Below are positions 20,621 to 63,320 of a stretch of 64,000 nucleotides of DNA, in pieces. A program made the position numbers and the translations under genes. Location of the stretch: assembly GCA_023205875.1 (NCBI GenBank), contig CP060759.1, positions 62,001 to 126,000 of the forward strand, given 5' to 3'. The notes under the pieces were generated by a model. It was not told the DNA's origin and did not search any database. It saw only the letters and a program-made list of their open reading frames with translations. This stretch comes from Chloropicon primus. Its lineage: Eukaryota > Chlorophyta > Chloropicophyceae > Chloropicales > Chloropicaceae. Within the stretch, counting starts at the first letter, position 1; each line of letters starts with the position of its first letter.

Positions 20621-20643
20621 CCAAGCGAGGGGTTCACCGAAAG
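20621..20643 (-). promoter_or_regulatory. bipartite promoter motif, copy for BRCT gene
   Basis: Minus strand CTTTCG, 7-bp spacer GTGAACC, then CCTCGCTTGG. It ends 77 bp before the BRCT ATG and points toward it. It is one of at least six copies in the window sharing both halves and the exact spacer. Confidence 0.6.
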
Positions 20644-20975
20644 AGGAAGAAGCGTTCGTCTTGCTCCTCGTTCCACACACACGCGCGCGCGCACGCGCTC
20701 TGACTCTGACACTGACCTCTCGTCCCCGTTCGCTTCTCTCCTCTCTCTACGGTTGGAAATGTTGTGCTGGGCTCCGCATCACACCATTCTCTTCAAGCGC
20801 GGGGTCCATGGAACCATAACACCACGATTCCTCCCCTCCCCCCCTCTCGCGACCACCAAACGCCCTTCCCACGCCGTGACCCCTCTCCTCCCTTCTCTCC
20901 TCCTCTTCCCTCCTCTTCCCTCCTCTTCCCTCCTCTTCCCTCGTCCCTTCCCCGCCACCCCGCGTTCCAAACCCC

Positions 20976-20998
20976 TCAAGCGAGGTATCGATCGAAAG
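20976..20998 (-). promoter_or_regulatory. bipartite promoter motif, left arm
   Basis: Minus strand CTTTCG, spacer ATCGATA, CCTCGCTTGA, oriented toward the BRCT gene. It is the inverted-repeat partner of the copy at 21291 and is identical to it over all 23 bp. Confidence 0.6.
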
Positions 20999-21127
20999 CC
21001 CACGACACGAGGATTCCCCTCCGTTGGCTCCCCTTCCCCCTCCGTCGTCCCTCCGGCCGTCCCTCGGTCCTCCAACCTGCCCTCCTCCTCGTCTCCTCCG
21101 ATCGATCGATCGATCTGGAAATCTCTT

Positions 21128-21135
21128 TTTGGCGC
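21128..21135 (+). promoter_or_regulatory. E2F-type site TTTGGCGC
   Basis: TTTGGCGC lies in the centre between the arms of the inverted repeat, within an AT-rich pocket (CTTTTTGGCGCAATTTTATT). Both flanking genes are replication-initiation factors of the kind E2F controls in plants and animals. Binding is inferred. Confidence 0.5.
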
Positions 21136-21290
21136 AATTTTATTTTGTTCGCGGTTTTTTTTTAAAACAGTCAGGGGCGGAGGACGAGGATCGCGTGGAG
21201 GGGTCGCGGGGGGGTGTAGGACCGAGGGACGGCCGGAGGGACGACGGAGGGGGAACGGGAGCCAACGGAGGGGAAGCGTCGTGTTGCGGG

Positions 21291-21313
21291 CTTTCGATCG
21301 ATACCTCGCTTGA
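21291..21313 (+). promoter_or_regulatory. bipartite promoter motif, copy for CDC45
   Basis: CTTTCG, spacer ATCGATA, CCTCGCTTGA, ending 134 bp before the CDC45 ATG. The flanking GCGGG before and GGGTTT after are partly shared with the copy at 63131. Confidence 0.6.
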
Positions 21314-21447
21314 GGGGTTTGGAACGCGGGGTGGCGGGGAAGGTGCTGGTGGCTTTGTGGAGAGGGGGGATTGGGTTGGAGGGGAGGGGAGGGGAGGGGA
21401 GGGGATCTCTTGAGGAAGGGCTCTCTTGAGGAGGGGGGACGGAGGAG

Positions 21448-23241
21448 ATGTTGTGCACGCCGGGATTCTGGGAGGACGCGTACCAGGCGCTCAAGGAGGA
21501 CGCCTTGAGTGGGGCGACTACCGCAAGGAGGGTGCTCCTGTTCGTGGCAACCGATAGCTGCGACTCGATAGCGACGTTGCAGATACTCGAGCACGTGCTG
21601 AACAAGGACAACGTGCCTTATGGGATTTATCCGGTGGCGAACGAGAGCGATCTCGTGAGGCACGCGGAGGACATGCTTCAGGACGACTCGGAGCGCTCGA
21701 TCGTTCTCGTGAACTGCGGGGCCACCGAGGACATAAGGGAGAAGCTGGGGTGCGGCCCTGGCATCAGGATCTACGTCTTCGACTCCCACAGACCCCTGAA
21801 CATCAAGAACGCTCAGAGGGAGAACGCCCAAGTCCTCGTGATCTGCGAGGACGGGGAGCAGGCGCACGAATATGTCGAGGAGGGCCTTGGCAACTTGCTC
21901 GACAGCGAGACGTCGTCCTCCTCAGAGTCCGAGTCGGACGACGATGGGGACGACGGGGACGAGGAGGGGGGAGCGCAGGCCAGGAAGAGGCAGAGGAGGG
22001 AGGTGAAGGAGAGGAAGAAGGATCTGAAGTCGAAGATCAAAGAGTACTATGACAGGGGTGCATCGTACTCGACCGCGGCGGGGTGTACCGCTTATGATTT
22101 TGCTTCCCACCTCAACAAGGACGACGTGAGTTGCCTGTGGAGAGCCATCGTTTCGCTGACGGACCACTACATCCACCAGCGGCTCAGCCACGAGACCTAC
22201 ATGAGAACGGTGGTGGAGTACGAGAGGAAGATATCGCAGCTTGGGAACGTGGCGGACTTGGCTTCAAACTCCCAAGACTCAGGGCCGGTGAACCTGGGAA
22301 CGAAGAGGATCCATTACAAGGAGGACTGTCACCTCGTGATGCTCCAGCACTGGTCCCTCGCAGACGCCCTCTTCAACTCTCCCTACGTCGCCACGAGGCT
22401 GAGGACTTGGAAGGAGAGCGGCAAGGAAAAGATCGAGCTGATGCTGGCCAAGATGGGATTCCCCCTCGTGGAATGCCAGCAGCACTGGACGCACATGAGC
22501 CCGAAGCTGAAGCAGAAGCTCTCGGCCAAGCTCCAGGAGTGTGCCCCGCAATTTGGCCTGGTGCACTTCCAGTTCAGCAGCTTTTACAAGGAGGACGGGT
22601 ACACCAGCATCTCTTCCACGGACATGGTTCACGCCGTCACGGCACTCCTTGAGGTTGGTTTCTACAACCCCGTGGACAGCGCTGGGGCTGGGAAGGAGGC
22701 CAACCAGGAACCTTTCAACGGGGTGGAATCTTTCTGGGCCGCTTACGAGGGCCTCGCCGGGAAGAAGAAGGAGCTCGTGCAGAAGGGCCTCGAGCTTGCC
22801 ATGTTGTTGCAGAAGGTCATCGTCAGCGTGGGGGGCGCCCAACTCAGCAGGAAAACGGTGTACCAGTGCGGCCACTTCAGGTACCTGAACTTGGACGAAG
22901 CGGGCTTGGGGGAGAACACGGATCTCTTGGCCCACCCGCTGGTGCTGGAGAGGCTGGCCTTCTTCCTCCAGGACGCCCATGCCCACATGGGGCGTTCCCA
23001 CAAGCCCGTGGTCATCGTTGGGCCCAAGCTGGGCGAGAAAGTTCTCGTGGTCGGCGTGACGGGGTCTCACGGCTCCCTGAAGAGCGGTCAGAAGGGTGGC
23101 AACATCTTCAGCAACAAGTTCAAGAAGGCATCCAAGGGCATCGGCGCCGAATATGAAGCGAGCGGCTTTGAGTCCAACGTCATCAAGATGCCTTACATGG
23201 ATGTCCAGCAATTCATGGACGAGCTCATCACCGACATGTGA
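21448..23241 (+). CDS. CDC45: replication initiation factor CDC45
   Basis: A 597-residue intronless protein of typical CDC45 length. The N terminus shows the degenerate DHH/RecJ fold: VLLFVATDSCDSIATLQIL, VPYGIYPVANE, IVLVNCGA, then IRIYVFDSHRPLNIKNA, the CDC45 signature. An acidic stretch (about 153-177) and a basic cluster (KRQRREVKERKK) follow, as in other CDC45s. The C terminus has FKKASKGIGAEYEASGFES and the final helix. CDC45 joins MCM2-7 and GINS as the replicative helicase and is loaded with help of TopBP1/Dpb11-type proteins. The divergent partner across the 904-bp promoter is such a BRCT protein. Confidence 0.95.
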   Translation: MLCTPGFWEDAYQALKEDALSGATTARRVLLFVATDSCDSIATLQILEHVLNKDNVPYGIYPVANESDLVRHAEDMLQDDSERSIVLVNCGATEDIREKLGCGPGIRIYVFDSHRPLNIKNAQRENAQVLVICEDGEQAHEYVEEGLGNLLDSETSSSSESESDDDGDDGDEEGGAQARKRQRREVKERKKDLKSKIKEYYDRGASYSTAAGCTAYDFASHLNKDDVSCLWRAIVSLTDHYIHQRLSHETYMRTVVEYERKISQLGNVADLASNSQDSGPVNLGTKRIHYKEDCHLVMLQHWSLADALFNSPYVATRLRTWKESGKEKIELMLAKMGFPLVECQQHWTHMSPKLKQKLSAKLQECAPQFGLVHFQFSSFYKEDGYTSISSTDMVHAVTALLEVGFYNPVDSAGAGKEANQEPFNGVESFWAAYEGLAGKKKELVQKGLELAMLLQKVIVSVGGAQLSRKTVYQCGHFRYLNLDEAGLGENTDLLAHPLVLERLAFFLQDAHAHMGRSHKPVVIVGPKLGEKVLVVGVTGSHGSLKSGQKGGNIFSNKFKKASKGIGAEYEASGFESNVIKMPYMDVQQFMDELITDM

Positions 23242-23635
23242 GCGAGCAAAGAAGTCCGTTTGGAGTCTGGGGCTTGGCGCGTGGCGTGGCGTGGCGTGGT
23301 CAGGCACCAAAGACGATATTACGACTGGACTCGTGTTGTTGGTGTGGACGGCGTACTCCTAAACACAGTGAGAGTCTGTCTCTCCCTCATGCATCTTCAT
23401 TGGAAATGAATAAAATATATTACACCAACATTATCAGGCACTTCAGAGGGGTCCAAACAAAGGGATTCTCCCGTTGTCCAACCATCATCACAACCAACCG
23501 CGATGAACTTGAACTTTGGCGTTACGTTATGCCCCTTTCCCGCCCCTTGGCAGATTCTTGAGAGGGGCCAGGCAATCAGCAACAGCGACTGGGCGGACTC
23601 CTCAGGAGAGGTCTCGGGGAGTGGGTGGCACGGCA
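23242..23635. other. intergenic between CDC45 and GNAT
   Basis: No gene seen. GTGGC tandem repeats occur at about 23279-23300. A TTTCCCGC E2F-like site lies at about 23536-23543, roughly 95 bp before the GNAT ATG. Confidence 0.5.
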
Positions 23636-24485
23636 ATGGCATACGTCGTGGATTTGGAGTCAAGATCCCACCTCGTGGAACATGTCTTGCCACTGCGGGG
23701 TAAGCTCAAGACGGGCCAACTCGTGGAGCTCTCTCTCCTCAAAAAACCTTTTGACATGGGCGACTTCCAAGCCTTGCATGAGATCTTCGAGGAAATCATC
23801 GAGGAGGGAGTCTCCTACCCTCAGCAAGGACCGGTGACTGCGGAGGCTTTCAGGGTGTATTATACGAGCCACGACGTTTTCGTGCTCAGGGAGGCGTCGA
23901 GTCGCGAGATACTCGGAGCATTCTACGTTAAGGTAGGTCCTGTCCGTGGGAAGGGAGCCGCCCGTTCCGCTAGTTGCAACGCTAACCTCCTTCTCTCGGC
24001 TCTGCGTGGTCTGCAGCCGAACTTCCCAGGACGTTGCTCCCACATCTGCAATCATGGATTCATGGTTCCTTCCAGGTTTAGGAACAGAGGCATTGGAACG
24101 GTGATGGCGAGACATTCATTATTCCTATCGAAGCTTCTTGGATACAAAGCAGTTTACTATAACCTTGTCTTCACGGACAACAAGCACGCCATCCACGCCT
24201 ACAAGAAGCTGGGTTTTCAGCAGACAGGTAAACAACTGGCAACAACTCCCTCCCTCTTCTCCTTTTCTGCCTCACCGACGCCTGCAGGAGTGCTGGGTGG
24301 TGCATGACTGACGACTCTGTTCGGCTCTGTTTCTTGCCTCGGCGACAGGATTCGTGCCCGAGGCGGCGAAGGTGACAAAGGACGGCAAAACGCATTACCA
24401 GGACGCCGTGCAGCTTTACTTCGACTTGGACGAGGTAAAAAGTGAGGAAGGACAGCCCCAGCCCCAGCCCAGTAACTTGCTGTAA
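23636..24485 (+). CDS. GNAT-family N-acetyltransferase (MPR1-like)
   Basis: Three exons by GT-AG and reading frame: 23636-23932, 24017-24227, 24349-24485, giving 214 residues. Exon 2 opens PNFPGRCSHICNHGFMV, then the acetyl-CoA loop RFRNRGIG (Q/R-x-x-G-x-G) and YYNLVFTDNKHAIHAYKKLGF, the last strand-helix of the GNAT fold. The PNFPGR-SHICN-GF block is what I associate with the yeast MPR1 / fission yeast ppr1 group, which acetylates toxic or oxidised proline analogues. The substrate here is unproven. Both introns are short (84 and 121 bp). The stop overlaps a TGTAA (24481-24485), so poly(A) addition must be very close. The tail is Gln/Pro-rich. Confidence 0.82.
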
Positions 24486-24642
24486 TTTATTCACTCGATT
24501 CACTTCCGTCCGATCGAGCGAGAGAGATCAAGCGACTTCTGTCGTGTGTGAGTTGCAGGTACGCGTCGTCGCCACTGTTGTTGTTTACTGGTAGATTACA
24601 AGAGCAGGTTTGAAGGCAGGAGCAGCCACCGCGGTGTGCACC

Positions 24643-25503
24643 TCAGACGGATTCCTTGAATTTTCTTCTCATCTTCCTCACAAACTTGCTGAAGTCCTGA
24701 TCGGCGTTCAGCTCTTTCTCGAGGTCCTTCACTCCGTTCACCTGTGGAGAAACATCCTGAACAGAGTACGTATCATCGCTCATGATGCGAACGTCGAACC
24801 AGAACTTCTTCTCGGGATTCCTCCTGTCGATCTGCGTGAACCCTATTCGTAGGGCGTTGTCATTGTCACTGGCGTCCCCACTCGCGGAGTTGGTGTGGAC
24901 AAAGTGAAGGCCAAGCTTCTCACCGTAAAGGTTGGAGAGTTTTTGGAGACTCTGCAGCTTGGTTTCCGTCTTGCTGTGAGCCATGGAGGCCTCGTCTTTC
25001 CTCCTCTGCAGCAGGTCGACCTTCAAGCTGACCTCGTCCTTGAGCCTGTTCACCTCCTCAGGAAGGAGCAGCGCGCTCTTCTGCTTCGCCTCGAGCTGCG
25101 CCATCGCGAGAGGGGGCGGGAACGAGAGAGAAAAGAGCAGTCAGCGACTGGATCACTTCGAGTCCCTCGCTCGAAACTCACCTTCTGAACCAGTGCGTGG
25201 GCCTCCTCGTTCTCCTCCTCGATACTCGTGTGGAGCTTCTCCACCTCGGACACAAGCCTGCTCAACCAAAAAAACGAAACGAAACGAAGAGGTTAGCGGT
25301 TATCTTTCCTTCTCCCCCTCTAGCGTTTGCGTCACTCACTTTTCTTGGTTCTCCTTGAGTTCTTCGTACTCGGTGTTTGCCTTCTTCATGTCTATCTGGT
25401 GCTTCTGTCTTATGCTTTCCACCGCATTAAGTCTGGAGTGCGCCCACCTGTCGAACCCACCCTTCTGCCTGTTCAGGCTCGCGCTCAACTCCGTCAAGTT
25501 CAT
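24643..25503 (-). CDS. SPC25: kinetochore protein SPC25
   Basis: Three exons on the minus strand: 25503-25340, 25257-25182, 25095-24643, with frames matching across both GT-AG introns; 230 residues, the usual Spc25 size. The ATG at 25503 (MNLTELSA) was chosen because the frame above it opens only at a GTG through an Asp/Glu run. The N-terminal three fifths is coiled coil; the C-terminal globular head has GEKLGLHFVHTN, LRIGFTQIDRRNPEKKFWF and FSKFVRKMRRKF, matching the RWD head of Spc25. In the NDC80 complex Spc24-Spc25 anchors to the inner kinetochore. A TGTAA on the minus strand at 24596-24600 follows the stop. Confidence 0.88.
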
Positions 25504-25980
25504 CTCCTCCTCCTCCTCCTCGTCGTCGTCGTCCTCGTCGTCGTTGTCGTCGTCGTCGTCGCCGCTCCGCTGCTCTTCTGTCACTCGACCGTTTGATTTT
25601 GGAGGAGTTTGATTTATTACGAAATGTGAAGATAAATGAGAAGATGAGAAGATCGGTTTGTGATGGCACAGGAAGAACGACGGCGGAGGGATGTGGATGT
25701 TAGACTTCTCTTTCTCTCTTCTTTCTCTCTTCTTTCTCTCTGTTTCTCTTGTCCTCTCCTCTCTCTCTTTCTCTCTGCGTCACTTCACTCTGGTTTGGGG
25801 ACTGCTCCTTGGCTTTGGCTTGGCTTGGCTTGAAAGAGGGGGGGGAAGGCCAGGCTCAAAAGGGACGACGATGGCCGACGAGGTTTATTGTAGTTACATG
25901 GGTGTGAAGTATGTCTTAATTCTAACTAATAATGTCTACACAATGCGATGATATGATATGATATGATGTGATGCGGTGGC
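25504..25980. other. promoter of SPC25 and 3' flank of the kinase
   Basis: No gene seen. A GTC/GTCCTC trinucleotide run (25522-25562) lies upstream of the SPC25 ATG, then CT-rich repeats (25707-25775). A minus-strand TGTAA at 25894-25898 serves the kinase gene. Confidence 0.5.
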
Positions 25981-28719: not shown

Positions 28720-29440
28720 CTTGTTCTTGTTCTTGTTCTTGCTCCTGTTCTTGTTTGTTGGAGGGAAGGGAAGGTTGAAGTCGTTGGGTTTGTGTTGTTG
28801 TTGTGTGTTGAGGAGGGTTTTCCTCTGGTCCTTGAGTCTCAGGTCGTTGTGGGAGCTCCGCCTTCGCCCTTTGCCACCCAACAAGACACGACCTTTGTCC
28901 CCTTTCTCTCTCAATCCAGGAGAAGGCACGATATCCTTTCCATCGACAAACCCTCTTGACGTCACGCACTCCAGAGAAGAGAAGAGGATGTGTGCGTGCG
29001 TTTGAGTGAAGAGGTTACCGGGGTGTCGGGGCTCGAGTCGAGAAGGATTAACGCTACCTCTTCCGCACTCGGACGTGTTGGAAAGAACGAAGGAAGTCTC
29101 CAATAAGATATCTTTCTTTCCAAAGCAAAGTGAAGCAAAGTGAAGAGAAGAGAAGAGAAAGAAGAGCACCAAGATACATCATTTCGCTTTCTCTTTCCTT
29201 TCCCAAAAAGAAAAGAAAAGAAAAGAGGTTGGGTTCGGTTGGGTCCTCCCTCCCGCCAATTTGATACTTTTCATTTTTTGTATTTCAAATTTGAAGTAGA
29301 AGCTTTTTCGGAAGCCTTATCCAGAACGCGGCGAACGAGGGCCAGAAGTGCAGCCAGGGGAGGAGGGTCTGTGTCTGTCTGTCTGCGGCGTTGGTGGTCT
29401 GTGGTCTGAAAGGGGAGGACAGAGAATAGGGACGGAGACG
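28720..29440. other. divergent promoter, kinase and plastid L3
   Basis: No gene seen. Features: TTCTTG hexamer repeats (28723-28755) just upstream of the kinase ATG, AAAGTG/AAGAG repeats (29120-29165), and an AT-rich pocket (29262-29300, CATTTTTTGTATTTCAAAT) that may be the core promoter for the L3 gene. Confidence 0.45.
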
Positions 29441-30341: not shown

Positions 30342-30509
30342 GCTGCTTTCGCTTTGCTCGTCCCTGCGCAGGAGTAGAGGAGAGAGAGAGAGCAAAAAAT
30401 TGGAGAATTTCATGTATGTAACAAACGAACGAAAAGGATATGATGTTTACTCCGTCCCAACACCGGCCCCTTCTGTTCTTCGATCTTGATCCCGAGCGGA
30501 CGCACGTCG

Positions 30510-31642: not shown

Positions 31643-32175
31643 TTTGACTCCCGCACACCAGCCCCCACCAACAACCGTGATACTCTCTGGATACTCGAGA
31701 CTCCCTGGATCACCCCCCCACCACTGCGTTCTACACGGTGTCCAAGGCTTTGACTCCGCACTCCGTTGTGTTCAGGTACAAGTCCAGGTGTTTTCTGGTG
31801 CTCCTGACCCCCTGATTGTGCACTCCAGTCTCCAGCCTCCTGGCCTCCTGGCCTCCTGGCCTCCTGGCCTCCTTGCTCTTCCCCGGACCCAAACTTCCAG
31901 TCTAGTGGAATCTTTGCCTCGGCCAAAGCGGAACTCTTAAGCCCAACCCCAAGTCAAGGACAGTCTGTTGTCAGGAAGGGTACGGCAAGGCCAGGGGCAA
32001 GATACGGGTGAGGCAAGGATCGCTTTCTTGCTCTTTCGAAAGAGCCTGGCCTTGCTCGAAACAAGCAAACGCGCTCGCTTTGCTTTGGTGAGGCAAAGAG
32101 GTTGCAGACACACAATCACAGTTTCAGGCGAGGAGGAGTAACGGAAGTACTAGAAACGAATCGTGGAGAGGAAAG
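31643..32175. other. intergenic with 8-bp minisatellite
   Basis: No gene seen. CCTCCTGG is repeated about five times at 31835-31872. AAGCAAA/CGCTTTGC-type short repeats occur at 32015-32100. An imperfect bipartite motif is listed separately. Confidence 0.5.
32033..32061 (+). promoter_or_regulatory. variant bipartite motif upstream of secreted orphan
   Basis: CTTTCGAAAGAGCCT is followed, after a few extra bases, by CTTGCTCGAAA. It shares CTTTCGAAAGAGCC with the copy at 47126, but the two halves are further apart. It lies 115-143 bp before the ATG at 32176. Confidence 0.35.
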
Positions 32176-32895
32176 ATGAGAGCTTTGAATGTCTTGCTCA
32201 TGCACATCGCGGTTGTGAGCCTTGCCATTGCACTGGTGGGTGCGGAAGCCGACCGGATTGGAGACGGAGAGGTTGGGTTCCAGTTGCTCGGTGTGGCGGT
32301 GTGTGATTACAAATCGGCTTCCTGCAACGTGGGAACGGACAACGCGGGGGCATTGAATTGCATGAACGAAGGATATCACTCGGTGTGCATACCAGCGGCC
32401 AGCGATTTGGGTTTTCAGGTAGGTCGCCACGACCCGGTTCCCCCCGATACAAACGTCGACACAGCCCTCAACAACAGTAACTTGATGTTGAAGAACGTGT
32501 TGAAGGGCATGGCGCAGAAGACGAGTTGGTTGGCCTTCACGCTTGCTAGCACGGGCGGGCAATATGGAATTCAAGACTGCACGGACGCCGTGAAAATGAA
32601 TACACCGGAGTGCGCTGCTTGCGGGCTTGACGGGTGCACACTCATCATGATTACCTTGGACAAGGTAGTCTTTGGCGATTTGGAGTATAGAGCATACAAG
32701 CTCCTGCCCGACGGCAGCTTGCCGCAGCCTCCTCCGGAGCCATTCTATCAGACAACGGGAAACAGCGTTATTCCCACCAACTCGGAGGCGTATGTGCAAG
32801 TGATGGCAACAAACAAGGGCCAGTGGGTGAGGTATCCGGACGACAAAGTTCAAGGAGTGGCTCGGTTCGGCGCGCCAATTCTTCCACCATTTTGA
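32176..32895 (+). CDS. secreted protein of unknown function
   Basis: A 239-residue intronless protein. Residues 1-23 form a clear signal peptide (hydrophobic core LLMHIAVVSLAIALV, cleavage near VGAEA). The mature part has eight cysteines, including CDYKSASC, CMNEGYHSVC and CAACGLDGC, which should form disulfides outside the cytosol. A Pro-rich stretch (SLPQPPPEPF) lies near 185-200, and the chain ends FGAPILPPF with no membrane anchor or HDEL. I recognise no family. The coding character is good (G/C-rich third positions, no low complexity), so the gene is probably real. It converges on DCAF11 with 60 bp between the stops. Confidence 0.7.
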   Translation: MRALNVLLMHIAVVSLAIALVGAEADRIGDGEVGFQLLGVAVCDYKSASCNVGTDNAGALNCMNEGYHSVCIPAASDLGFQVGRHDPVPPDTNVDTALNNSNLMLKNVLKGMAQKTSWLAFTLASTGGQYGIQDCTDAVKMNTPECAACGLDGCTLIMITLDKVVFGDLEYRAYKLLPDGSLPQPPPEPFYQTTGNSVIPTNSEAYVQVMATNKGQWVRYPDDKVQGVARFGAPILPPF

Positions 32896-32955
32896 GTTCT
32901 GACTGCTAATAATAACAGTAACATCAAGAAACAATGGATTGCAATTATGGCAAAA

Positions 32956-38873: not shown

Positions 38874-39472
38874 TCGTTCCAACACAACAACAACGTCACT
38901 CCGTCACGTCAGGTCATAGGGTTTGAATGCCATGAACCACACCCCACGGAGAAAAAGAGAGCGAGAGAGAGCGAGAGAGAGCGAGAGAGAGAGGGAAGGG
39001 AGAGGGAATGTATGTTTTCATGGTCCGTGCTCTCCTCCCCTGGGCTCCTCTTCGTGCAAGCCCGTGGGACACGACACGACCACGACCACGACCCTTACCT
39101 TGCGCAGGCGCAGCATCGTCCTTCCGTGTCTGGCCTCGCCCGGGGTCCTTCCATCGGTGTAAACACTTTGTTCTACAATAGACGTGACTTTTCCCTGGTG
39201 GTCGTGCGTACACTCCTTCTTACGAGGGGAGAGATGAGGAAAAAAAGGAAAAAGGAAAAGGTCAGGGTGACGAGGGGACTGGGGAGGGACGGAGAGGGGG
39301 TTGTTTGGGGTGACGGGAAGGGTCAAGGGGAGGGGAAAGAGAGAACGGGAGGTCCAGAAAACGAAAGTACACTTCACGGTCTTTTGATTGGATACCTCAT
39401 TGGTAGGATTTGGGGCCAGGTGTGGGGAGAGGGAGAGGACGAGGACTGCTCGAGGAGTGCTGGAGGTTCGTG
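38874..39472. other. divergent promoter, NDUFS4 and NDR kinase
   Basis: No gene seen. GAGC/GAGA repeats lie at 38955-38994 and ACGACC repeats at 39070-39092. A degenerate relative of the bipartite motif, CTTTTG...CCTCATTGG, lies at 39381-39404, about 70 bp before the kinase ATG. Confidence 0.4.
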
Positions 39473-42955: not shown

Positions 42956-42978
42956 CTTTCGAACGAGACCTCGGTCGA
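42956..42978 (+). promoter_or_regulatory. bipartite promoter motif upstream of membrane hydrolase
   Basis: CTTTCG, spacer AACGAGA, CCTCGGTCGA, ending 349 bp before the ATG at 43328. It agrees especially well with the 47126 copy (CTTTCGAA..GAG..CCTCG.TCGAAA). The greater distance suggests a long leader. Confidence 0.5.
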
Positions 42979-43327: not shown

Positions 43328-44350
43328 ATGCCACCGGGGGGAGTGCACTTGACTGCGGGGGTTGGGGCGCTGAGGTGCTTCTCTTACGCCTACGGTGCGA
43401 GCAGGTTGGTCCGGGGGAAAGTTGATGGGGCTCTGGGGAGGTTCTGCCCATCGGTGGAAGCCGCGGACAGGAGAAAGGCGATCGCGGTAGGTTTCATCCT
43501 GGGCACGATACTTCCGGACGCCGATCTCCTGCTGTGCATACTCATAGGGGCCGTGACGACGATCACCGAGAAGGACTTGGAAGTGTTTCACAGAACTTTC
43601 AGCCATTCGCTCCTCGTCATTCCGTTGCTGGCGCTGGCCCTCATTTCTTGGCTCCAGTCCGTGGAGGCCAAGGGGACCAAGGGCGCGCGGGGGGCTCTGC
43701 AGAAGTGGGCCGTGAGGCTGGGGCTGGTCCGCGGCGGGGAGGAGCCGCGGACCAGCGTGCCGCAAGTCCTGGTTCTGTTCGTGACCTCGGTTGCCCTCGG
43801 CTGCGCCTTGCACTGCGTGATGGATCTGTTCTACGTGATGAAGTTGCAGATCCTGTGGCCGCTTTCTTACCAGTTCGACGTTCCGCTGATTTACCCGCTC
43901 GAGTTCCTTTCTGAGAAGGGGAAGAAGCTCCTGATCATTTTGGACTTCGGCTCGGACATGGCGTTCTGGTACCTGCCGCTTCTCGTCATCTGCGGCAAGA
44001 CCGGCATCCAGGGCGACAAGGTCAGTTTCTTGGCTTGCGTCATCGCTTCTTACGTCTTGACCCTGGGGTTCTTCATGAGAGAATCCTGGATCGGCGATGC
44101 GGTGTCGACTGTTCACTTCACCAGGCGGCTTTATATCACCGGCACGGTTTGGGTCACGACGCTGAAGTTGTCGCCCGTGATCTTCGGCGAGGCCGTCACG
44201 GCCGTCTGCATGGATCCCCTCGCAGCTCTGGAGCCGCGACCACAGCAGACGTGGCAGGAGGGGGAGTGCATGAAGAGGGCGGCTCTGAAGAAGATCATTG
44301 CTGCGCGGTCCAAGAGGCGCGCCAACTTTGCGAAGGCTCTCCTCCTGTGA
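43328..44350 (+). CDS. YdjM/DUF457-like membrane-bound metal hydrolase
   Basis: A 340-residue intronless protein with several membrane helices. Family marks: PPGGVHLTAG near the start (the His of the first motif), GTILPDADLL, HRTFSHSLLVIPLL (the H-R-x-x-x-H box), HCVMDLF and LWPLS. This set of His and Asp residues is the metal site of bacterial LexA-regulated membrane hydrolases (YdjM, DUF457). Eukaryotic members are uncommon, and the substrate of the family is not established. No plastid or mitochondrial presequence is evident. The tail is basic (KKIIAARSKRR). A TGTAA lies at 44426-44430. Confidence 0.75.
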   Translation: MPPGGVHLTAGVGALRCFSYAYGASRLVRGKVDGALGRFCPSVEAADRRKAIAVGFILGTILPDADLLLCILIGAVTTITEKDLEVFHRTFSHSLLVIPLLALALISWLQSVEAKGTKGARGALQKWAVRLGLVRGGEEPRTSVPQVLVLFVTSVALGCALHCVMDLFYVMKLQILWPLSYQFDVPLIYPLEFLSEKGKKLLIILDFGSDMAFWYLPLLVICGKTGIQGDKVSFLACVIASYVLTLGFFMRESWIGDAVSTVHFTRRLYITGTVWVTTLKLSPVIFGEAVTAVCMDPLAALEPRPQQTWQEGECMKRAALKKIIAARSKRRANFAKALLL

Positions 44351-47125: not shown

Positions 47126-47148
47126 CTTTCGAAAGAGCCCTCGCTCGA
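47126..47148 (+). promoter_or_regulatory. bipartite promoter motif upstream of coilin
   Basis: CTTTCG, spacer AAAGAGC, CCTCGCTCGA, ending 57 bp before the ATG at 47206. Here the first half extends to the palindrome CTTTCGAAAG. Confidence 0.6.
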
Positions 47149-47205: not shown

Positions 47206-48651
47206 ATGGAGGCAGAGGTCGCGACGATGGAGGCGAGAAGAACGAGCTGGAGGAACGGCGCGAGGAGGCTGACGATATGCATCCCTCGCGAGATCCTTTG
47301 CCAAGAATTGGCCCAGCACTTCACCCCGGGGGAAGCGTATCGGGTCGCTTTGGATTTTGAAAAGTCGAACAAGGAAACCGAAACCGGTGGAGTGGACGAC
47401 AGGGGTGAGGACCTCATCCACTTGTGGAGGGAGGTGAGGCGGAGCTTTGGGCGATACATCGGCGACGAATGGAGGGAGGACTTCTCTTTGGTCGCGGAAG
47501 GGGGAGCGAGGCTGAACCCCCTGAACCCGACGATAGGAGTCGCCGAGGGGGACGTCTTCGAGCTGTCGCGTCCAATGGCTTGGGAGAAGAACCTGTGGCC
47601 GGACGCCGCGAAAGGGGTCGTGGATCGGGGCCAGGTGCTCCCAGCGAGGCCGGAAGCTGCTGGCCCGACGCCCGTGAAGAGCCCGAGCAGGAGCTCGCTG
47701 AGGAAGAGCAAGAAAAGGATGGGAAAACGGATGGAGAGGCTCGGGAGGCTGAACCTCATAGATGCTGCCAAGGTCGTGAGAGACGGAGGCAGCAAAGAGA
47801 GCAGACAGCAGCAGCAGCACCCAGCCTTCCGAGGAAGCCACGTCGTATTTGGGGAGGGGGGAAACGAGGCAGCTGCTGAGGACGAACAGGCGTCGCCCTC
47901 GGCTTCGGGCCGATACGAGTTCTACTGCGAGGGGGCCAGCGCCGACAGATCTTTGACCCGGGATGCTTTTCTCCAGGATGCTGGCAAGTACAGCGCTTAC
48001 CCGCTCTTAGAAGAGGGCTCGCTGCCCAAGGAGGGCGCGAAAATTGCGTATAGAATTCTGGAAATAGTGGAGCCAGGCATTCCTCAGCTCTCTGGTTACA
48101 GACTGGGAACGGTGCAGCAGGCGAATGAGCAAACCACGGAGGTCACGGTTGTTCCAGCAGAAGAACCGGGCTATGGTCTCTCTGAAAAGTATACGGAGGA
48201 TGGGACCCTGCGAGCAGACCTGCGTGATTTGCAAGAGATCAGGGTATTGGAAGAAAGTGTCGCGGGTGCTTCTGACGCTGGCGACAGTCTCGTTCCGTAC
48301 AACAGGGTGGCCGGGCCGCCGAAGCCGGGCACGAGCAAGGAGTTCACAAATTGCAAGACGTACGAGTCTTACTTGGAGCATGCTCACAAAGTGTTTGAGG
48401 AGGAGAGGGAAGCTTCTGCGTTAGCTAGAGGGACTTACGAGGATTACTTGGACCACGCTCACAAAGTGTTCGAGGCGACGCGAGCTTCCGCGTTAGCGGA
48501 AGGAAGTGGGGAAGGCTCCTCAGAAGGAAAAAAGAAGAGCGCAGGAAATCCAAAGGCAGCTCCAAAGATAAGAAAGGGAAGTATGAGCAAGAAAATGAGG
48601 GCAAAGTGCTTCAGCTTGAGTGTGGGTCACATGTTGAAGGAATTACAGTAA
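47206..48651 (+). CDS. COIL: coilin-like nuclear body protein
   Basis: A 481-residue intronless protein; the ATG at 47206 was chosen over an upstream TTG. The N-terminal 120 residues begin RRLTICIPREILCQELAQHF and contain EDLIHLWREV and a segment ending GDVFELSR, arranged like the coilin ubiquitin-fold self-association domain. A disordered basic middle follows (LRKSKKRMGKRMERLGR). At about 263-325, YSAYPLLEEGSLPKEGAKIAYRILEIVEPGIPQLSGYRLGTVQQ matches the atypical Tudor of plant and animal coilin in layout and key positions. The tail has two 24-residue repeats (TYESYLEHAHKVFEEE, TYEDYLDHAHKVFEAT) and a basic end. Coilin scaffolds Cajal bodies for snRNP maturation. The identification rests mainly on the Tudor-like domain. 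Confidence 0.68.
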   Translation: MEAEVATMEARRTSWRNGARRLTICIPREILCQELAQHFTPGEAYRVALDFEKSNKETETGGVDDRGEDLIHLWREVRRSFGRYIGDEWREDFSLVAEGGARLNPLNPTIGVAEGDVFELSRPMAWEKNLWPDAAKGVVDRGQVLPARPEAAGPTPVKSPSRSSLRKSKKRMGKRMERLGRLNLIDAAKVVRDGGSKESRQQQQHPAFRGSHVVFGEGGNEAAAEDEQASPSASGRYEFYCEGASADRSLTRDAFLQDAGKYSAYPLLEEGSLPKEGAKIAYRILEIVEPGIPQLSGYRLGTVQQANEQTTEVTVVPAEEPGYGLSEKYTEDGTLRADLRDLQEIRVLEESVAGASDAGDSLVPYNRVAGPPKPGTSKEFTNCKTYESYLEHAHKVFEEEREASALARGTYEDYLDHAHKVFEATRASALAEGSGEGSSEGKKKSAGNPKAAPKIRKGSMSKKMRAKCFSLSVGHMLKELQ

Positions 48652-48704
48652 GGATTTTGAAAGTCTGCAACACAAAGAAAATTTGCTCTTGGTTTTACCA
48701 CTTG

Positions 48705-53786: not shown

Positions 53787-53966
53787 TTCTCGCAACAGGC
53801 CACGGTCGTCGCGCACGGAAAGGAACGGAAGCAAGCAGGCAAGCAGTCGTCCTCTTACGTCATTGGAATCGATTGGCGCCTCCTCCTGTTCGGCGTACCC
53901 CTCGCCCTCGTCCTGCCTCCATTCTTCCTTCCCTCTCTCGACGACGACAGCCAAAGCGAAAGTGAC

Positions 53967-53969
<3 letters not shown>

Positions 53970-54016
<47 letters not shown>

Positions 54017-54052
54017 AGAGAGAGAGAGAGGGAGGGAGGGAGGGAGGGAGGC
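53970..54052. repeat. GT/GA/GGGA simple repeats
   Basis: (GT)n passes into (GA)n and then GGGA/GGAG repeats between the methyltransferase-like gene (start side) and the stop of the AP2-like gene. It complicates the start of the methyltransferase-like gene. Confidence 0.85.
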
Positions 54053-54090
54053 ACAGGCCTGTCGGTGGATTGAGTGGGTGATGGAGTGGA

Positions 54091-54997: not shown

Positions 54998-55432
54998 CTC
55001 GTCGCTCGTCCCACAACCGTTACGTCCGTTCACAAACAACCAACCAAACAAAAAAGAAGAAAAAAAAACGCGACGCCGACGCCGACGCGAGACGCACCAA
55101 TCGACGCGACCCGCTTTCCCTCTCTCTCCCGTCCCGCTCTCTCTCCCGTCAAAGGCACCCTCTTCTCCCCTACCAAGCGCGCTCGATCATTGGCCCGCCG
55201 CCAGTGGTCCCACACCGACCGCTCAATTATTTGAAACTTTAAAGCCGGTATCGAATTTAACGCCCGAGCACAGCCTGCTCGCTCGAGTACTCGGCCATTG
55301 TGAGGAGCAATGGCGGACGGGAGGCAGAGGAAGGGTTAGGGTTAGGGCTAGGGCTAGGGAACGCTTTCTTCCTTTGCTTCATTCTTTCTTCTTTTCTTTT
55401 CTTTTCTTTTTCTTCGGCTGCTTGTACCGACG
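54998..55432. other. divergent promoter with telomere-like run
   Basis: No gene seen. An AT-rich pocket (55226-55262, ATTATTTGAAACTTTAAAG) probably contains core promoter. At 55333-55359 GGGTTA occurs twice and GGGCTA twice, a telomere-like stretch in the leader of the protease gene, followed by CTTTT repeats (55382-55412). Confidence 0.5.
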
Positions 55433-58123: not shown

Positions 58124-58383
58124 AAGAAAGGAAAAAAGAAAAGGTGGGACTTTATTATTATTTATTATGATTTTATTAAAAGTGGTTGGGTGTGGATCCA
58201 TTCATCCATCCATTCATTCATTTCTCTCAAGCAAGGCGCTTCCTTTCTTTCTTACCCCTCGTCCCCTTCATCCATCCATCGCCATTCCTCCTCCCCTCAT
58301 GAACTGGGCTCTCTGACAAAATTAAGACAGAGAGAGAGAGAGAGAGAGAGAGGAGAGACAAAGGGAAAGGGAAAGGGAGAGGT
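58124..58383. other. short intergenic with ATTC and GA repeats
   Basis: ATTC/ATCC repeats (58197-58221), an AT-rich stretch (58151-58180) and (GA)n at 58328-58353 just before the NDUFB10 ATG. No gene seen. Confidence 0.55.
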
Positions 58384-58729
58384 ATGACGCAAGGGTATTT
58401 TCCTTCGCCGCCGAGCGCAGAAGAGGCCAAGACCAACCCCGTGGCCTTGCTGGAACTCAGGGAACACCTCTCGAGGGAGAAGTTGGTCAAGATAGAAGAG
58501 CAAAAACTCGTACGCGAGGAGCTCAAGCTGTGCTACAGGAGGGAGGGCGTCAACCACATTTCAAAGTGCAAGGACGTAAGTGCCGGACCCCGCGATACGA
58601 GCTTCGGTCCCGTCGCCATGCCGCTGACCTCGCTGACTCCGTTTCCTTCTTCCCGTTCCCCCCTCGCAGTTGGCGCTCGAGTACATTAAGCTCATGAAGG
58701 AAAACAAGGCCGCAGTGAACCTGAATTAG
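58384..58729 (+). CDS. NDUFB10: mitochondrial complex I subunit NDUFB10 (PDSW)
   Basis: Two exons, 58384-58575 and 58670-58729, phase 0, 94-bp GT-AG intron; 83 residues. The core REHLSREKLVKIEEQKLVRE, then LCYRREGVNHISKCKD and LALEYIKLM, matches plant NDUFB10 closely, including the CYR-x-EGVNH and KC cysteines that form a disulfide in the intermembrane space. It belongs to the distal membrane arm of complex I. The protein is shorter than the animal form, as in plants. No presequence is present, which is usual for this subunit. The last exon encodes only 19 residues. Confidence 0.9.
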
Positions 58730-59057
58730 GGTTCCGCCATTGCATTGGTTCGGGTTTAAGTGGCAGGTGCTGGCGGGGAAGCGAAGAGCGTCGCACGAGC
58801 GTGCGTGCGTGCGTGCGTGCGACAGGACTGGCCTGATCGTCCTGACCTAATTCGTCCTGGCCTGGTGATGGTCCTGGCCTGGTGTTCTTTGGCGGCCAAA
58901 CTCTGCGCCTTCCATTTAATATAAAAACAATATACAACAAAGAGTTTCCAAATAATTATCTATCCAGGAAATGAATGTTGTGCTCCCCTATCGGTCTGTT
59001 TCTCTTCTTTCTATGTTGTTGAGGTAACTCATCCTCATTTAGTCTTCTCGAGGAAGT
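58730..59057. other. intergenic with GTGC repeats
   Basis: No gene seen. CGTG/GTGC repeats lie at 58798-58821 and GTCCTGGCCTGGTG-type repeats at 58853-58884. TTTGGCGGCCAAA (58887-58899) resembles an E2F site but lies in the 3' flank of two convergent genes. Confidence 0.5.
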
Positions 59058-60299
59058 TTAGAGCTCGTCGTGCTCCACCTCGTCGTCGTCCTCGTCGTCC
59101 TCGTCGTCTTCGACTGGGATCTCGGACTTCGCCTGCTCCTCCTCGAACCTGGCCTTGGCCTCAGCCTCCTCTGCAGCCTTGGTGTCATCGAAGAGCTTCT
59201 TCTCGATGTCCTTCATGGCTCCCCAGGTCTCCTGGGCGAACTGCTTGGCGTACTCGACGTCGTCGGTCACGAGGATGTTGTCGAAAATGGTGCCACTCTT
59301 GACCTGCCACAACTCGAAGCCGATGTACTTCAAGTCAGTGTACCTGTAGAGCTCGTCTCCGCTTCCGTCGACGTAGTCTGGGTTCTTGATCATGGGGGCC
59401 TCCCACTTTCCCTTGTACTCGGGGTTGTCCATAAGCTTCTGGGTCCACTCTCCCTTGTACTCAGGGTTCTTCATCATTGGCCTCTCCCACTCTCCGTCTT
59501 CCTCCTCGTCCCAGTCCTCTGGAAGCTCGGCCTTGTCGTCAGGGATCATCTCTGGCACGTCCCAGTCCTCTGGCTTGACGTCCTCTGGGTCAGGGATCTT
59601 CTCCCTCTCGTCCCAGTCCTCTGGCTTGGTGGCCTCGGGGTCGTGGATCTCCTTGGGTGGCAAGAACGCCCAGTCCTCCTCGAGCTCTCCCTTGGCGACC
59701 TCCTCCAAGTCCAAAAGAACCTCGTAGGTGTTGTCGGGGTGGACGATCAGGGTGTAAACGTGCGTGAGCTCGTCCGTGGCTACCCTCGTGAGCTTGTTCG
59801 TTCGGAGCTGGTTCACACCGTCCTTGTCCGTGAAGATCACATGCGTGTGCTTGGTTCCTCCGCAAATGTCAGGCCCGAACATGATGGAATAAGGCGTCTC
59901 CCCGGAGAAGTCAGCGATCTTGTCGGCGCTGCTCGCGGGGACCAGCTTGACGTATCCGCCACCGCAGTCGATCTTCTGCTCGTGCTTGACGCTGAACTGG
60001 AACACGAGATCCTTTCCAGTGTTGTCGAAGGTCTCCTTCATCTCCGCGGTCATGGCGTAAAACCTCGCGTCAGGAGTCGTCTGAATTCCGGCGTCCTTCT
60101 CCGGGTCGCTGAAGTACTTGCCGGCGCTTCTCACGAACTTGCCGTCCGCCCCTTCGGCGGTCTTCCAAGTGGACTTCACCCAATTCTTCTCCCAGTCCGC
60201 AGGGAAGGTCTCCTCGAAGTACACCTTCGCCTCCACGCAGCTCAGAATGCTAAGCGTCGCCAGGGCCAGCGCCGCGCAGCCCAATCCCTTCGTCCACAC

Positions 60300-60302
<3 letters not shown>
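59058..60302 (-). CDS. CRT: calreticulin
   Basis: A 414-residue intronless protein, typical size. A signal peptide ends at CVEA-KVYFEE. The lectin domain has FEETFPADWEKNWVKS, FSVKHEQKIDCGGGYVKL and MFGPDICGGTKHTHVIF. The P-domain has three type-1 repeats (IHDPEATKPEDWDERE and two more) and three type-2 repeats (GEWERPMMKNPEYKGEW...). GFELWQVKSGTIFDNILV closes the lectin fold. The C terminus is acidic (calcium storage) and ends HDEL, the ER retrieval signal. It folds glycoproteins and buffers calcium in the ER. It is calreticulin rather than calnexin: no membrane helix, and three repeats of each type. Confidence 0.97.
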
Positions 60303-60334
<32 letters not shown>

Positions 60335-60420
60335 AACCTCTCCCTTCTCGTTCTTCTTCGCTCGGCGGCGTCGGCGTTCTCGATCCCCCGGGGGGAAAAG
60401 AAAGATTTTTTTCGCAGAAC
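60303..60420. repeat. (CT)n in the calreticulin leader
   Basis: A (CT)n run at 60304-60335 directly before the calreticulin ATG (GA on the coding strand). The rest of this stretch holds nothing recognised. Confidence 0.8.
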
Positions 60421-60499
60421 CCTCGCTCTCCTCAGATCAAGAGGATGGAGGGCGGAGGGGGCAAGCAGAGGAGGGAGGGAGGGAACATCCAGATGTCGA

Positions 60500-60531
<32 letters not shown>

Positions 60532-60651
60532 TCTGTCTGTCTGTCTGTCTGTGCAGTGGGTTGGGATGCCCTCGCTCCTCAGATCAAGAGGATGGAGGGC
60601 GGGCGAGGGGGCAAGCAGAGGAGGGAGGGAGGGAGGGAACATCCAGATGTC

Positions 60652-60691
<40 letters not shown>

Positions 60692-60729
60692 GCACTCTGT
60701 CTGTCTGTCTGTGCAGTGGGTTGGGATGC
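60421..60729. repeat. 150-bp tandem duplication
   Basis: 60421-60568 and 60569-60729 are two copies of one block: CTCGCT(CT)CCTCAGATCAAG, a GGAGGGC stretch, AACATCCAGATGTCGATC, (CT)n, CTGT repeats and GTGCAGTGGGTTGGGATGC. They differ mainly in the length of the simple repeats and by CACACA in the first copy. No coding content. Confidence 0.9.
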
Positions 60730-60960
60730 TGTTCTAGAAAGGATGATGTCTTGGGGCTCGGCAACAGCGTGGGGAACGGTTTGACAATTTGGATATATTG
60801 AGAAAAATCGGTCGTCGTCGTCGGTTACGCTCATAGTAATGTTACAGAATCGTTGTACAAAGGAGGAACAAGGTGGCGTGGCCCCCGCTCGAGAGACTAC
60901 CCCTCACTCACTCACTCACTCACTCACTCACTCTCGCTCGTTCCCCATCCATTCATTCCT
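60730..60960. other. 3' flank of the Atg22-like gene
   Basis: (CTCA)n at 60903-60932 and a minus-strand TGTAA at 60842-60846, about 115 bp beyond the stop of the transporter gene. No gene seen. Confidence 0.55.
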
Positions 60961-62664
60961 TTATTCGTTCATTGCCTCTTCGGGCACGAGCTGGAACATC
61001 TCGAGGTCCGCCGTGGGCGGTTGGCTCACTTTCATCTTCTCGACATCCATCTTTTGGTCCGAGGCCACGGCCAAGCTGGTCTTGAAGAGGAAGGGAAGGG
61101 CGGGCAGCATCACGAAAAGCATCGAGAAGCAACCCCACCGAATCGATCCGGTGAGGTCGACGATCAGGCCGATGACCAGGGGCCCGATCCACGAGGTGCC
61201 GAGCTCCAAGATGCCCTCCAGGGACATGATGGTCGAGCTGTACCCCGCGGGAATCATCTGCGCGAGGATCCCCCTGCTCAACGCGGGGAAGGGGGAGACC
61301 AAGAGCCCAGCGAGCACGAACAAAAAGTAGATCTCCCACTTTTCTCGCAATCCCAAGAGCATGTACACGGGGATGAGATTCGTGACGCAGCACACGACCA
61401 GAGTCAGCCTCTGGTTGCTGTTCTTGTACCTCTTCACGAAGGCCCCCAGCGCCAGGGCGCTTATCATGGAGGTCACGAGCATGACCACGAGTGGGAGGAC
61501 GAGCTCGTCCGCTCGCAGGGAGAACTCCCGCTCGATGTAGAGCGTCGCCGTCGTCAGGATGGACTGCACCGCCGTCCAGTGAAGCGTCCTGCCGATCAAG
61601 AATACCATCATCTGGCTCATGTCCTTCCTCATCAGGGTCAGGGTACCGTACACCCTCTTGCACCCGAGGGAGAGCCAGTCGAGCGTGCCGCCCGCGAACG
61701 GGGGGCCTGGCCTGACCCCGAGACCGTAGATGGAATGCCAGCAAAATGCGATGCCAAAGACCGCAGCGAAGGCGAGGGCGAGCCTCAGACCGAAGGTGTT
61801 AGAAGGCTCCGTCTCCCCAGGAGCCAGAAGCGTCACCAGGAGGCCCTGGACGATGAAGCCCAAGATCTGCCCGACGAAAAAGTAAGCCGAGGTCGTGATC
61901 GAGAACTCAGAAGCGAGTTGCTCGGAGAGCTTGTTGACCTCCATCTTGGAATTCCGCTGCCGATTGTCGTCGCACCTTGCCCCGTCCTGGTCGTCAACCT
62001 CCTCGGCCTGGCTGTAGAGCTCCTTCATCTTCTCCTGGACCTTGGGATCTGATCGCACGAGGAGAGGCAAGTAGGCGTTCCTCAGCGCCCTGTTTCCGAA
62101 GTTCCAGGCAGTCGCACCGGCGAAGACGAATAGGGCGTTGACCAGGTAGAGGGAGGAGCTCGACAAGCTGACGGGGATGGCGAAGCAAACGCCCCAGACG
62201 CCCACGCAGAACGCCAAGGTCAGCCTTCTGTGGCTCCCAATGTCACCCATCGGCCCCAAGATCACCAGCAGAGCCCCAGAGGAGAACAAAACCAGGGCAG
62301 AGACGTACGCTGCCACCGACGTGTAATCCATTCCTATTCCCGGCACCTTGGTGTCCAAAGGGAACCACTGGCAGTCATCCGTGATGTTGTCTGGCCTGCG
62401 GAAGTCTGCGTCCGAGTGGACCGTCACGGGGGCAGCACAAAGGTCCCCATCGCTGGTGATGTGCCTCCACTCGATCACGCCCCCCTTTGAAGCCTCGTAT
62501 TTTGCCTGCGTCACGACCAAAAGGGGCGCGAACACGATGATTGCCAGAGCTATGGGTCCGATCCCGAAGTCGTACATGTACCAAGCCCGGAGCTCCTCAT
62601 CTTCAGGAAAGCAGCAGGCGCAGGACCCTCTGCAACTCCTCCTGTTTGACGATAGCGCGGCCAT
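60961..62664 (-). CDS. Atg22/UMF1-type MFS transporter
   Basis: A 567-residue intronless protein from ATG 62664; the frame above opens only at TTG. A Cys-rich start (CRGSCACCFPEDEE) leads into RAWYMYDFG, the signature of the Atg22 family. About 12 membrane helices follow in two sets with a large loop (about 235-290) holding a charged segment. GPMGDIGSHRR is the A-like loop of MFS carriers, WNFGNRALRNAYLPLL is an Atg22-type block, and FPALSRGILAQMIPAG with a following PLVIGLIVDLTGSIRWG completes the family signature. Yeast Atg22 exports amino acids from the vacuole during autophagy. A weak bipartite motif on the minus strand (62832-62854) lies 168 bp upstream. Confidence 0.85.
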   Translation of the reverse strand: MAALSSNRRSCRGSCACCFPEDEELRAWYMYDFGIGPIALAIIVFAPLLVVTQAKYEASKGGVIEWRHITSDGDLCAAPVTVHSDADFRRPDNITDDCQWFPLDTKVPGIGMDYTSVAAYVSALVLFSSGALLVILGPMGDIGSHRRLTLAFCVGVWGVCFAIPVSLSSSSLYLVNALFVFAGATAWNFGNRALRNAYLPLLVRSDPKVQEKMKELYSQAEEVDDQDGARCDDNRQRNSKMEVNKLSEQLASEFSITTSAYFFVGQILGFIVQGLLVTLLAPGETEPSNTFGLRLALAFAAVFGIAFCWHSIYGLGVRPGPPFAGGTLDWLSLGCKRVYGTLTLMRKDMSQMMVFLIGRTLHWTAVQSILTTATLYIEREFSLRADELVLPLVVMLVTSMISALALGAFVKRYKNSNQRLTLVVCCVTNLIPVYMLLGLREKWEIYFLFVLAGLLVSPFPALSRGILAQMIPAGYSSTIMSLEGILELGTSWIGPLVIGLIVDLTGSIRWGCFSMLFVMLPALPFLFKTSLAVASDQKMDVEKMKVSQPPTADLEMFQLVPEEAMNE

Positions 62665-62831
62665 CCTTCCCAACCAGCCGGAGTTTCTCACACTCCCAGG
62701 GTTTCCCGTCCCTTGGTTGCGCCTCTCAGACGCCAGCACCTCCTGGACAACAACTTCACTCAAGCCAACACCACTCAGCCGCTTGAAGAGAGAAACAACT
62801 CAAGTTCTCAGCCCCTGATCGACCAATCGCT

Positions 62832-62854
62832 TCAAGTGCGTGCACAATCGAAAG
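62832..62854 (-). promoter_or_regulatory. degenerate bipartite motif upstream of Atg22-like gene
   Basis: Minus strand CTTTCG, spacer ATTGTGC (7 bp), ACGCACTTGA, matching the second half at 7 of 10 positions with correct spacing and orientation. It may be chance. Confidence 0.3.
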
Positions 62855-63054
62855 AGGTGGAGACGAAGGTACGCGTCCCGTCCTCCCCTGCCCCTTTCCA
62901 CGCCGTCCTCGTCGTCTCCTTCCCCTCCAAACTTCGTTCCCCTGGCTGGCCCTTGGCCCAAAACTCTCCAGAGTGTCCTCGGGATGAGCGCACCCCAACT
63001 CAAAAAAAGAGAAACTCACGAGAGAGGAGCGAGGGAGTGAGGGAGTGAGGGAGA

Positions 63055-63320
63055 GAGCGAGGGTGTTGACGACGAGGCGAGAGGAAGACGAGGTGTACTG
63101 ACTGGACAGGACGAAAGTACGTCTCGCGGGCTTTCGTTTGGTGCCTCGCTTGACTTGTTTGACGGGCGGAGTGAACGAGGAGAAACCTTTGGCGAAGGAG
63201 GCCAACTGGAGTTCTGGAGCCAAGGAAGGAGCGAGGGTGTTGGCGACGAGGCGGAAGGAAGAGGAGGTTGGGTTGAGGTATACTGACTGGAGTGGACCGG
63301 ACGGAAGCACGCCTCGCAGC
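63055..63320. repeat. diverged direct repeat in a promoter
   Basis: 63055-63130 and 63229-63320 share GAGCGAGGGTGTTG, CGACGAGGCG, GGAAGA, TACTGACTGGA and ACG.CTCGC in the same order, with a 15-bp insertion in the second copy. The bipartite motif (63131-63153) lies directly after the first copy, and the ATG at 63322 directly after the second, where the motif is missing. Confidence 0.75.
63131..63153 (+). promoter_or_regulatory. bipartite promoter motif upstream of last gene
   Basis: CTTTCG, spacer TTTGGTG, CCTCGCTTGA, ending 168 bp before the ATG at 63322. Preceded by GCGGG like the CDC45 copy. Confidence 0.6.

Follow-up and report, generated by a model that had tools for sequence, protein, structure and literature searches.

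The promoters of many genes in the picoalga Chloropicon primus share a directional DNA element of about 70 bp, which came to light as a recurring motif in 64,000 nucleotides of contig CP060759.1 (positions 62,001 to 126,000 of the forward strand; hereafter the window, meaning that whole stretch) and which recurs across the genome with the consensus core TTTCG-NNN-GA-NN-CCTCG-CTT-GA. The motif is real, its copies stand between genes and face the next gene, and copies that lie close together are spaced on a nucleosome-like lattice. With somewhat more confidence than doubt, we read it as a sequence-specific promoter element that would hold nucleosomes in register around bidirectional promoters; judged from its sequence, the element suggests help in laying out chromatin where genes begin.

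Abundance and anatomy of the element

The genome searched comprises 17.58 Mb in 20 contigs. A scan for the core at up to two mismatches, as the sequence-only reading of the window had proposed, returned 863 places (440 on the forward and 423 on the reverse strand); the same pattern read backwards gave 11. Within the window, which was picked for the motif and is hence a biased sample, 9 matches at three mismatches or fewer compare with a mean of 1.21 and a maximum of 3 in shuffled sequence. As a held-out test, the window and 20 evenly placed 10-kb stretches (200 kb; 264 kb in all) were searched with a matrix built from 55 non-redundant sites that lay elsewhere; it found 15 sites of at least 25 bits, of which the window contributed 7 and the 200 kb the other 8, with none between 14 and 25 bits; five replicates of a first-order Markov control yielded nothing at or above 14 bits (0.6 per replicate at 10-12 bits), and reversed sequence yielded nothing at or above 10 bits. 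This score gap, taken with the empty controls, indicates that the element is close to all-or-none, while the window shuffle, the genome-wide counts and the held-out controls exclude a chance origin. A gapped profile search (nhmmer) adds weaker, partial matches, L026 (E 0.005) and L015 (E 0.01) among them; in reversed sequence the best match had an E value of 1.8. The core was not found in the viral contigs scanned, and no such element is described in the literature searched, which included the accessible parts of PMC6731263, PMC12301720 and PMC12695648 and covered few subscription papers.

The core is itself a 12-bp direct repeat, TTTCGNNNGA-NN-CCTCGCTTGA. Spacers of 6, 7 and 8 bp occur at 41, 863 and 47 places, respectively (reversed controls 13, 11 and 12), so that the 7-bp spacer is nearly fixed and a free or variable spacer between two half-sites is ruled out. 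The sequence-only reading had pictured two halves at differing spacings that are touched by one protein; besides the fixed spacing, this bipartite model is contradicted by the spacer holding part of the first 12-bp repeat unit and by conservation that spans about -18 to +52 around the core, spacer included, in an alignment of 66 distinct sites from 69 sequences. Across 77 columns, the 85 sites scoring at least 25 bits carry 52.3 bits of information, of which 24.7 belong to the core letters (which were used for selection), 6.0 to the spacer, 11.6 to the upstream and 10.0 to the downstream flank. The 12-bp repeat, the fixed spacer and the longer flanks had escaped that reading, as had the 180/290-bp geometry, the nucleosome-like spacing and the location in head-to-head promoters that are described below.

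Placement, direction and target genes

Placement was assessed on 86 pooled sites, most of them in loci selected for holding the core, against gene calls made by scoring open reading frames (ORFs) under an intron-free model; a gene call is absent downstream of 19 of these sites and upstream of 38. None of the 86 falls within a called coding frame. Among the 67 sites with a called downstream gene, 64 have a gene on their own strand ahead of them, the remaining three all being in L007, where a missed gene is suspected; a divergent gene stands behind 45 of the 48 sites with a called upstream gene. Over the 264 kb, the element is present in 8 of the 39 intergenic regions that are divergent, 2 of the 52 that are tandem and none of the 39 that are convergent (Fisher p 0.001). 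The earlier claim of a promoter-associated, directional and genome-wide DNA element is borne out, and the outcomes that were named as contrary to it, namely no enrichment upstream of genes or copies equally common in coding sequence and on both strands, are not what is seen, the called coding frames being empty of copies and the strand bias strong.

Of 53 listed target genes, 34 were scanned at a Pfam threshold of E 0.001, some matches lying under the curated cut-off, and 27 of them matched families of mixed function, among them CDC45, a BRCT protein, a coilin domain, release factor 1 domains, UTP25, a PI3/PI4 kinase, Nse1, Vps54, a photolyase, coproporphyrinogen oxidase and Atg22, along with one protein whose radical-SAM/acetyltransferase layout resembles that of Elp3. 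No common pathway unites the 34 scanned targets.

Spacing of neighbouring copies

Among the pooled sites, 17 of 18 close same-strand neighbours have a spacing of 159-194 bp and all 11 outward-facing pairs one of 278-315 bp, the only convergent neighbours being 15.7 kb apart. A second set, which partly overlaps the first, comprises 185 distinct places in genome coordinates among the matches listed, which for the 863-place scan were 100 of the 863; among these listed matches, same-strand gaps below 1 kb number 11 at 170-188 bp and one at 355 bp, divergent gaps below 3 kb measure 258, 291 and 315 bp, and convergent ones 1571 and 1603 bp. When the other matches are binned by 20 bp relative to 70 strong sites, almost all sit at about ±180 or ±360 on the same strand or, on the opposite strand, near -290, -480 and -660, with a few single matches off the lattice (for example at -300 on the same strand and at +140, -180 and -260 on the other), and the spacing holds for weak matches too. 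The 8-bp-spacer pattern led to three more regions: L071 and L073 consist of tandem units, and L072 holds one leftward and two rightward copies at distances of about 285 and 181 bp, which, like the other distances in L071-L074, were computed by hand from match coordinates.

When intergenic pieces were compared by blastn for other recurrent elements, mainly this element and local repeats were returned. With the element masked, a lag search gave 11 matches at 160-200 bp; the 20-bp bins covering 100-160 and 200-280 bp had 1-4 each, the excess being slight and built on few matches. Promoter-side repeats outside any called element were seen at L026:6132-6190 (lag 174 bp) and L018:1068-1115 (lag 183 bp), and may represent diverged copies or different elements that share the lattice. 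A variant of the core is repeated at C1:45812, 47876 and 49666 (part of which is L074), in units about 2 kb apart that probably represent a tandemly repeated gene.

Composition at promoter centres and beyond the last copy

At the midpoint of the 11 outward pairs AT content reaches 0.52-0.55, against 0.32-0.42 at 20-120 bp on either side. GC and AT skew both flip sign at this mirror-symmetric, AT-rich point, and of the 42 positions of A4/T4 runs between -200 and +200, 23 are no more than 20 bp away from it, a good part of these runs being supplied by the window's own pair. Past the last copy, a rhythm of about 150-180 bp that keeps phase with the element runs through both CG and GC content. Its power at 165 bp stands at 17.8 times the null for CG and 19.7 times for GC, a level reached in none of 2000 phase shuffles, and at 200-640 bp past the last copy it still amounts to 7.6 and 8.6 times the null, respectively (p ≤0.001). 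Re-anchoring of the genes with the element on their ATG (0-500 bp) gave no peak at 165-180 bp. The GC maximum lies at about +145 modulo 165; if GC-rich sequence marks the nucleosome core, the element would sit in the downstream half of a nucleosome or at its exit.

Palindromes of the form CGATCGAT/GATCGATC recur near the centres of divergent promoters, namely at 21083-21203 in the window and at the midpoints in L020, L030, L037, L038, L045 and L046; CGATCGAT is found 10 times in 27.8 kb of divergent intergenic sequence, three times in tandem intergenic sequence and once in about 194 kb of called coding sequence.

Proposed nucleosome register and competing explanations

We infer that the lattice is an array of nucleosomes. 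A sequence-specific protein would recognise the element of about 70 bp, with its 12-bp direct repeat, as DNA, and the element would mark the outward edges of head-to-head promoters in nucleosome register. An AT-rich centre, presumably nucleosome-depleted, would be flanked at about ±145 bp by outward copies on one or both sides, further copies may follow toward the gene in steps of about 180 bp, and promoter chromatin and/or initiation would thereby be fixed for a broad set of genes. A bolder version, which we put forward only tentatively, is that of a DNA-encoded nucleosome address: a dedicated and perhaps novel protein would read the directional 70-bp sequence once per nucleosome, thereby fixing nucleosomes one to three to either side of a bidirectional promoter, and would do so in a lineage apparently without the cytosine-methylation system that is reported to mark linkers in other prasinophytes.

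Several observations weigh against the element as a keeper of nucleosome register. Some arrays are recent tandem duplicates, so that the spacing may partly reflect duplication history; one same-strand pair of the 18, in L059, lies off the lattice at 230 bp, as does a weak outward pair at about 355 bp in L074, which comes from a 2-kb repeat; and the element is present in only about a fifth of the called divergent regions (8 of 39). Genes free of the element are also periodic, with a GC period near 150 bp over 0-500 bp from the ATG in 114 such genes (10.8 times, p<0.0005), a GC period near 180-195 bp over -300 to 300 in 100 of these (8.8 times) and a CG period in the latter of 4.1-4.3 times (p 0.011). 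Since element-free genes are periodic from the ATG, the composition period is not exclusive to genes with the element; in the former it may reflect promoter and coding composition or hidden phasing.

An ordinary directional core promoter or initiator, each copy of which would mark a transcription start, with copies about 180 bp apart as alternative starts in successive linkers, strikes us as rather unlikely. It fits the aim of the element at the gene (64 of 67) and the position of the last copy, which stands 38-569 bp before the called ATG (median 136, n=53; within 174 bp in 35 cases); moreover, in 6 of the 53 the called ATG lies 38-48 bp past the core start, inside the 3' part of the element, so that the element probably overlaps or follows the transcription start. 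(Upstream-ATG depletion was uninformative as a locator of the start because composition confounds it.) An initiator is, however, hard to reconcile with the strand asymmetry and A/T runs, which locate the centre of the promoter some 120-140 bp before the core, with the lack of a TATA-like AT peak just upstream of the core, and with a constraint of 70 bp, which is long for an element of that kind.

More improbable still is a dispersed repeat, whereby tandem duplication of units of about 157-182 bp would have spread the element and the spacing would simply record that history. Duplication has left traces: L071 consists of three identical 173-bp units and L073 of near-identical 157-bp units with the element in each, and left flanks are nearly identical in the L016 and L061 pairs and partly raised in L045, L005, one L052 pair and L030. 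Duplication therefore feeds the arrays, without making outward pairs. In an ungapped comparison of the 18 close pairs, which could understate likeness, left flanks are nevertheless near random in 12 (0.29-0.43, random mean 0.35) and right flanks in all 18 (0.17-0.40, random mean 0.28); tandem duplication cannot make the 278-315-bp outward pairs or the polarity, and a repeat spread in this way does not account for the absence of copies from called coding frames. As an observation in its own right, L071 and L073 illustrate that promoter arrays can grow by nucleosome-length duplication.

Affinity of the histones themselves for the sequence, with no dedicated reader protein, is very unlikely. Spacing and composition period are of nucleosome scale, and the conserved stretch, at about 70 bp, nearly matches half a nucleosome in length, but the element has fixed letters at fixed positions, and nucleosomal DNA carries a rotational signal of roughly 10 bp, whereas the self-similarity of the matrix (lags 5-30) is greatest at 12 bp, then at 16, and about zero at 10 bp. 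A structured element of the 5'-untranslated region, acting in RNA, is hardly credible, for the element, though on the strand of the gene and perhaps partly transcribed, gave in RNAalifold across 10 copies only -1.5 kcal/mol and 7 pairs, none of them with a compensatory change, and matched nothing in Rfam within the window.

Methylation context and known systems

A single PF00145 gene was found in the genome, and its best matches identify it as DNMT2, a tRNA-C38 methyltransferase (L069:376-1497; C1:613202-614275); no DNMT5 or DNMT1 gene was found in an exon-by-exon search, which split genes could escape. A single MT-A70 gene turned up as well, and it is AMT1/MTA1-like (E 7e-51, compared with 5.5e-28 for METTL3; L070:406-867; C4:1358754-1359170); no gene of the METTL3 kind was found in a search of the same exon-by-exon form, in which genes may escape. 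MTA1/AMT1 of Tetrahymena, to which the L070 gene is closer than to METTL3, is a DNA adenine methyltransferase. The accessible part of PMC12695648 places 5-methylcytosine (5mC) and N6-methyladenine (6mA) between nucleosomes in prasinophytes, reports robust 6mA only alongside AMT1 and locates it on ApT, in linkers downstream of transcription starts, in AMT1-encoding species; it further describes the work of Huff and Zilberman (2014) as linking periodic CG clusters in prasinophytes to DNMT5 linker methylation, and it holds no mention of Chloropicon. Because only DNMT2 was found in the exon-by-exon search, CG clusters linked to DNMT5 methylation are an unlikely cause of the lattice and were set aside as such; linker 6mA is a possible contributor, although ApT density shows no clear lattice.

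Sites for the general regulatory factors of yeast (Reb1, Abf1, Rap1) are short and act inside the depleted region. The Chloropicon element resembles them in being sequence-specific, in serving the promoters of many unrelated genes and in the organisation of flanking nucleosomes (here deduced from sequence), but differs in being about 70 bp long and directional and in recurring once per nucleosome length, outward on both sides. The CENP-B box in alpha satellite is likewise a protein site that recurs once per nucleosome-length unit; the element, whose protein reader is putative, lies instead in gene promoters, usually in one to three outward-facing copies and not in long satellite arrays. As far as the accessible text on methylation extends, the nucleosome-scale sequence period, the CG oscillation and the setting in compact marine green algae are shared with the DNMT5 CG clusters of prasinophytes, which differ in that an exact directional motif is present here and that the only PF00145 gene found is DNMT2; with the linker 6mA of AMT1 species, in turn, are shared the AMT1/MTA1-like gene and a periodic, start-linked architecture, the difference being that 6mA sits on ApT and the element core is built on TCG...GA.

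To what extent promoter-near nucleosomes are placed by DNA sequence and not by remodellers is a long-standing question. This compact genome supplies hundreds of copies of a single directional element, from whose spacing nucleosome positions can be predicted with an error of perhaps 10-20 bp; a rule for designing promoters in a picoalga of ecological importance would also be gained.

Copies in the window

The six clear copies on which the sequence-only reading was built proved right in coordinates and strand, with 0-2 mismatches each, and by our own ORF calls all are intergenic and aimed at the next called gene. The distance of 57-170 bp to the ATG that it gave for most of them holds, measured from the near end of the core to the called ATG, for about four of the six in round figures, those at 20976 (433 bp) and 42956 (350 bp) being farther away.

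Four copies lie between a gene for a BRCT-repeat protein (18225..20543, minus strand; Pfam PTCB-BRCT E 9e-36, BRCT E 2e-32) and CDC45 (21448..23241, plus strand; Pfam CDC45 E 1e-138). The inner copy of the leftward array (20976..20998, minus) is an exact core with 0 mismatches and 64.5 bits; 183 bp from it stands a weak second copy (20793..20815, minus; 25.5 bits; nhmmer E 0.013), which had been overlooked; and the third place, 172 bp from the second and 77 bp before the BRCT ATG (20621..20643, minus; 1 mismatch), combines a good core with flanks that fit the long element poorly (nhmmer E 0.22). The rightward copy before CDC45 (21291..21313, plus; 0 mismatches; 62.1 bits) is also exact and lies 315 bp from the inner leftward one. 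As had been recognised, these two exact copies belong to an inverted repeat, whose arms (20946..21071, minus, and 21218..21343, plus) are 96% identical over 126 bp. An AT-rich centre with T and A runs (21083..21203, no strand) separates the two copies, with a midpoint at about 21143. At 21128-21135, the midpoint between the CDC45 and BRCT genes, stands TTTGGCGC, which we take to be an E2F-like site. A replication or E2F regulon, suggested by the first targets scanned, found no support in the mixed functions of the wider targets scanned.

Farther along, a core with 2 mismatches and 43.8 bits (42956..42978, plus) precedes an ORF at 43328 by 350 bp, and one with 1 mismatch and 62.5 bits (47126..47148, plus) precedes a coilin-like gene (Pfam Tudor_Coilin E 1e-11) whose ATG is called at 47206. 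Toward the end of the window, a leftward copy (62832..62854, minus; 3 mismatches; 27.7 bits) before an Atg22-like gene (60961-62664; Pfam ATG22) and a rightward copy (63131..63153, plus; 0 mismatches; 57.0 bits) before an ORF at 63322 stand 299 bp apart. The former had been listed among four weaker relatives and is real; another of these, at 32033 (plus), is probably real as a weak, gapped and partial copy upstream of the ORF at 32176 (32024..32063, plus; nhmmer E 7e-4), whereas that at 39381 (plus) is not significant (nhmmer E 3.2) and that at 5119 (minus) has no reported match.

Two minor observations concern other repeats. Runs of three telomere units were found only twice, once close to the start of C15 and once close to that of C19, and an intergenic direct repeat in the window (60428-60729) shows 86% identity over about 150 bp between copies offset by 147 bp and contains CT-rich simple repeats.

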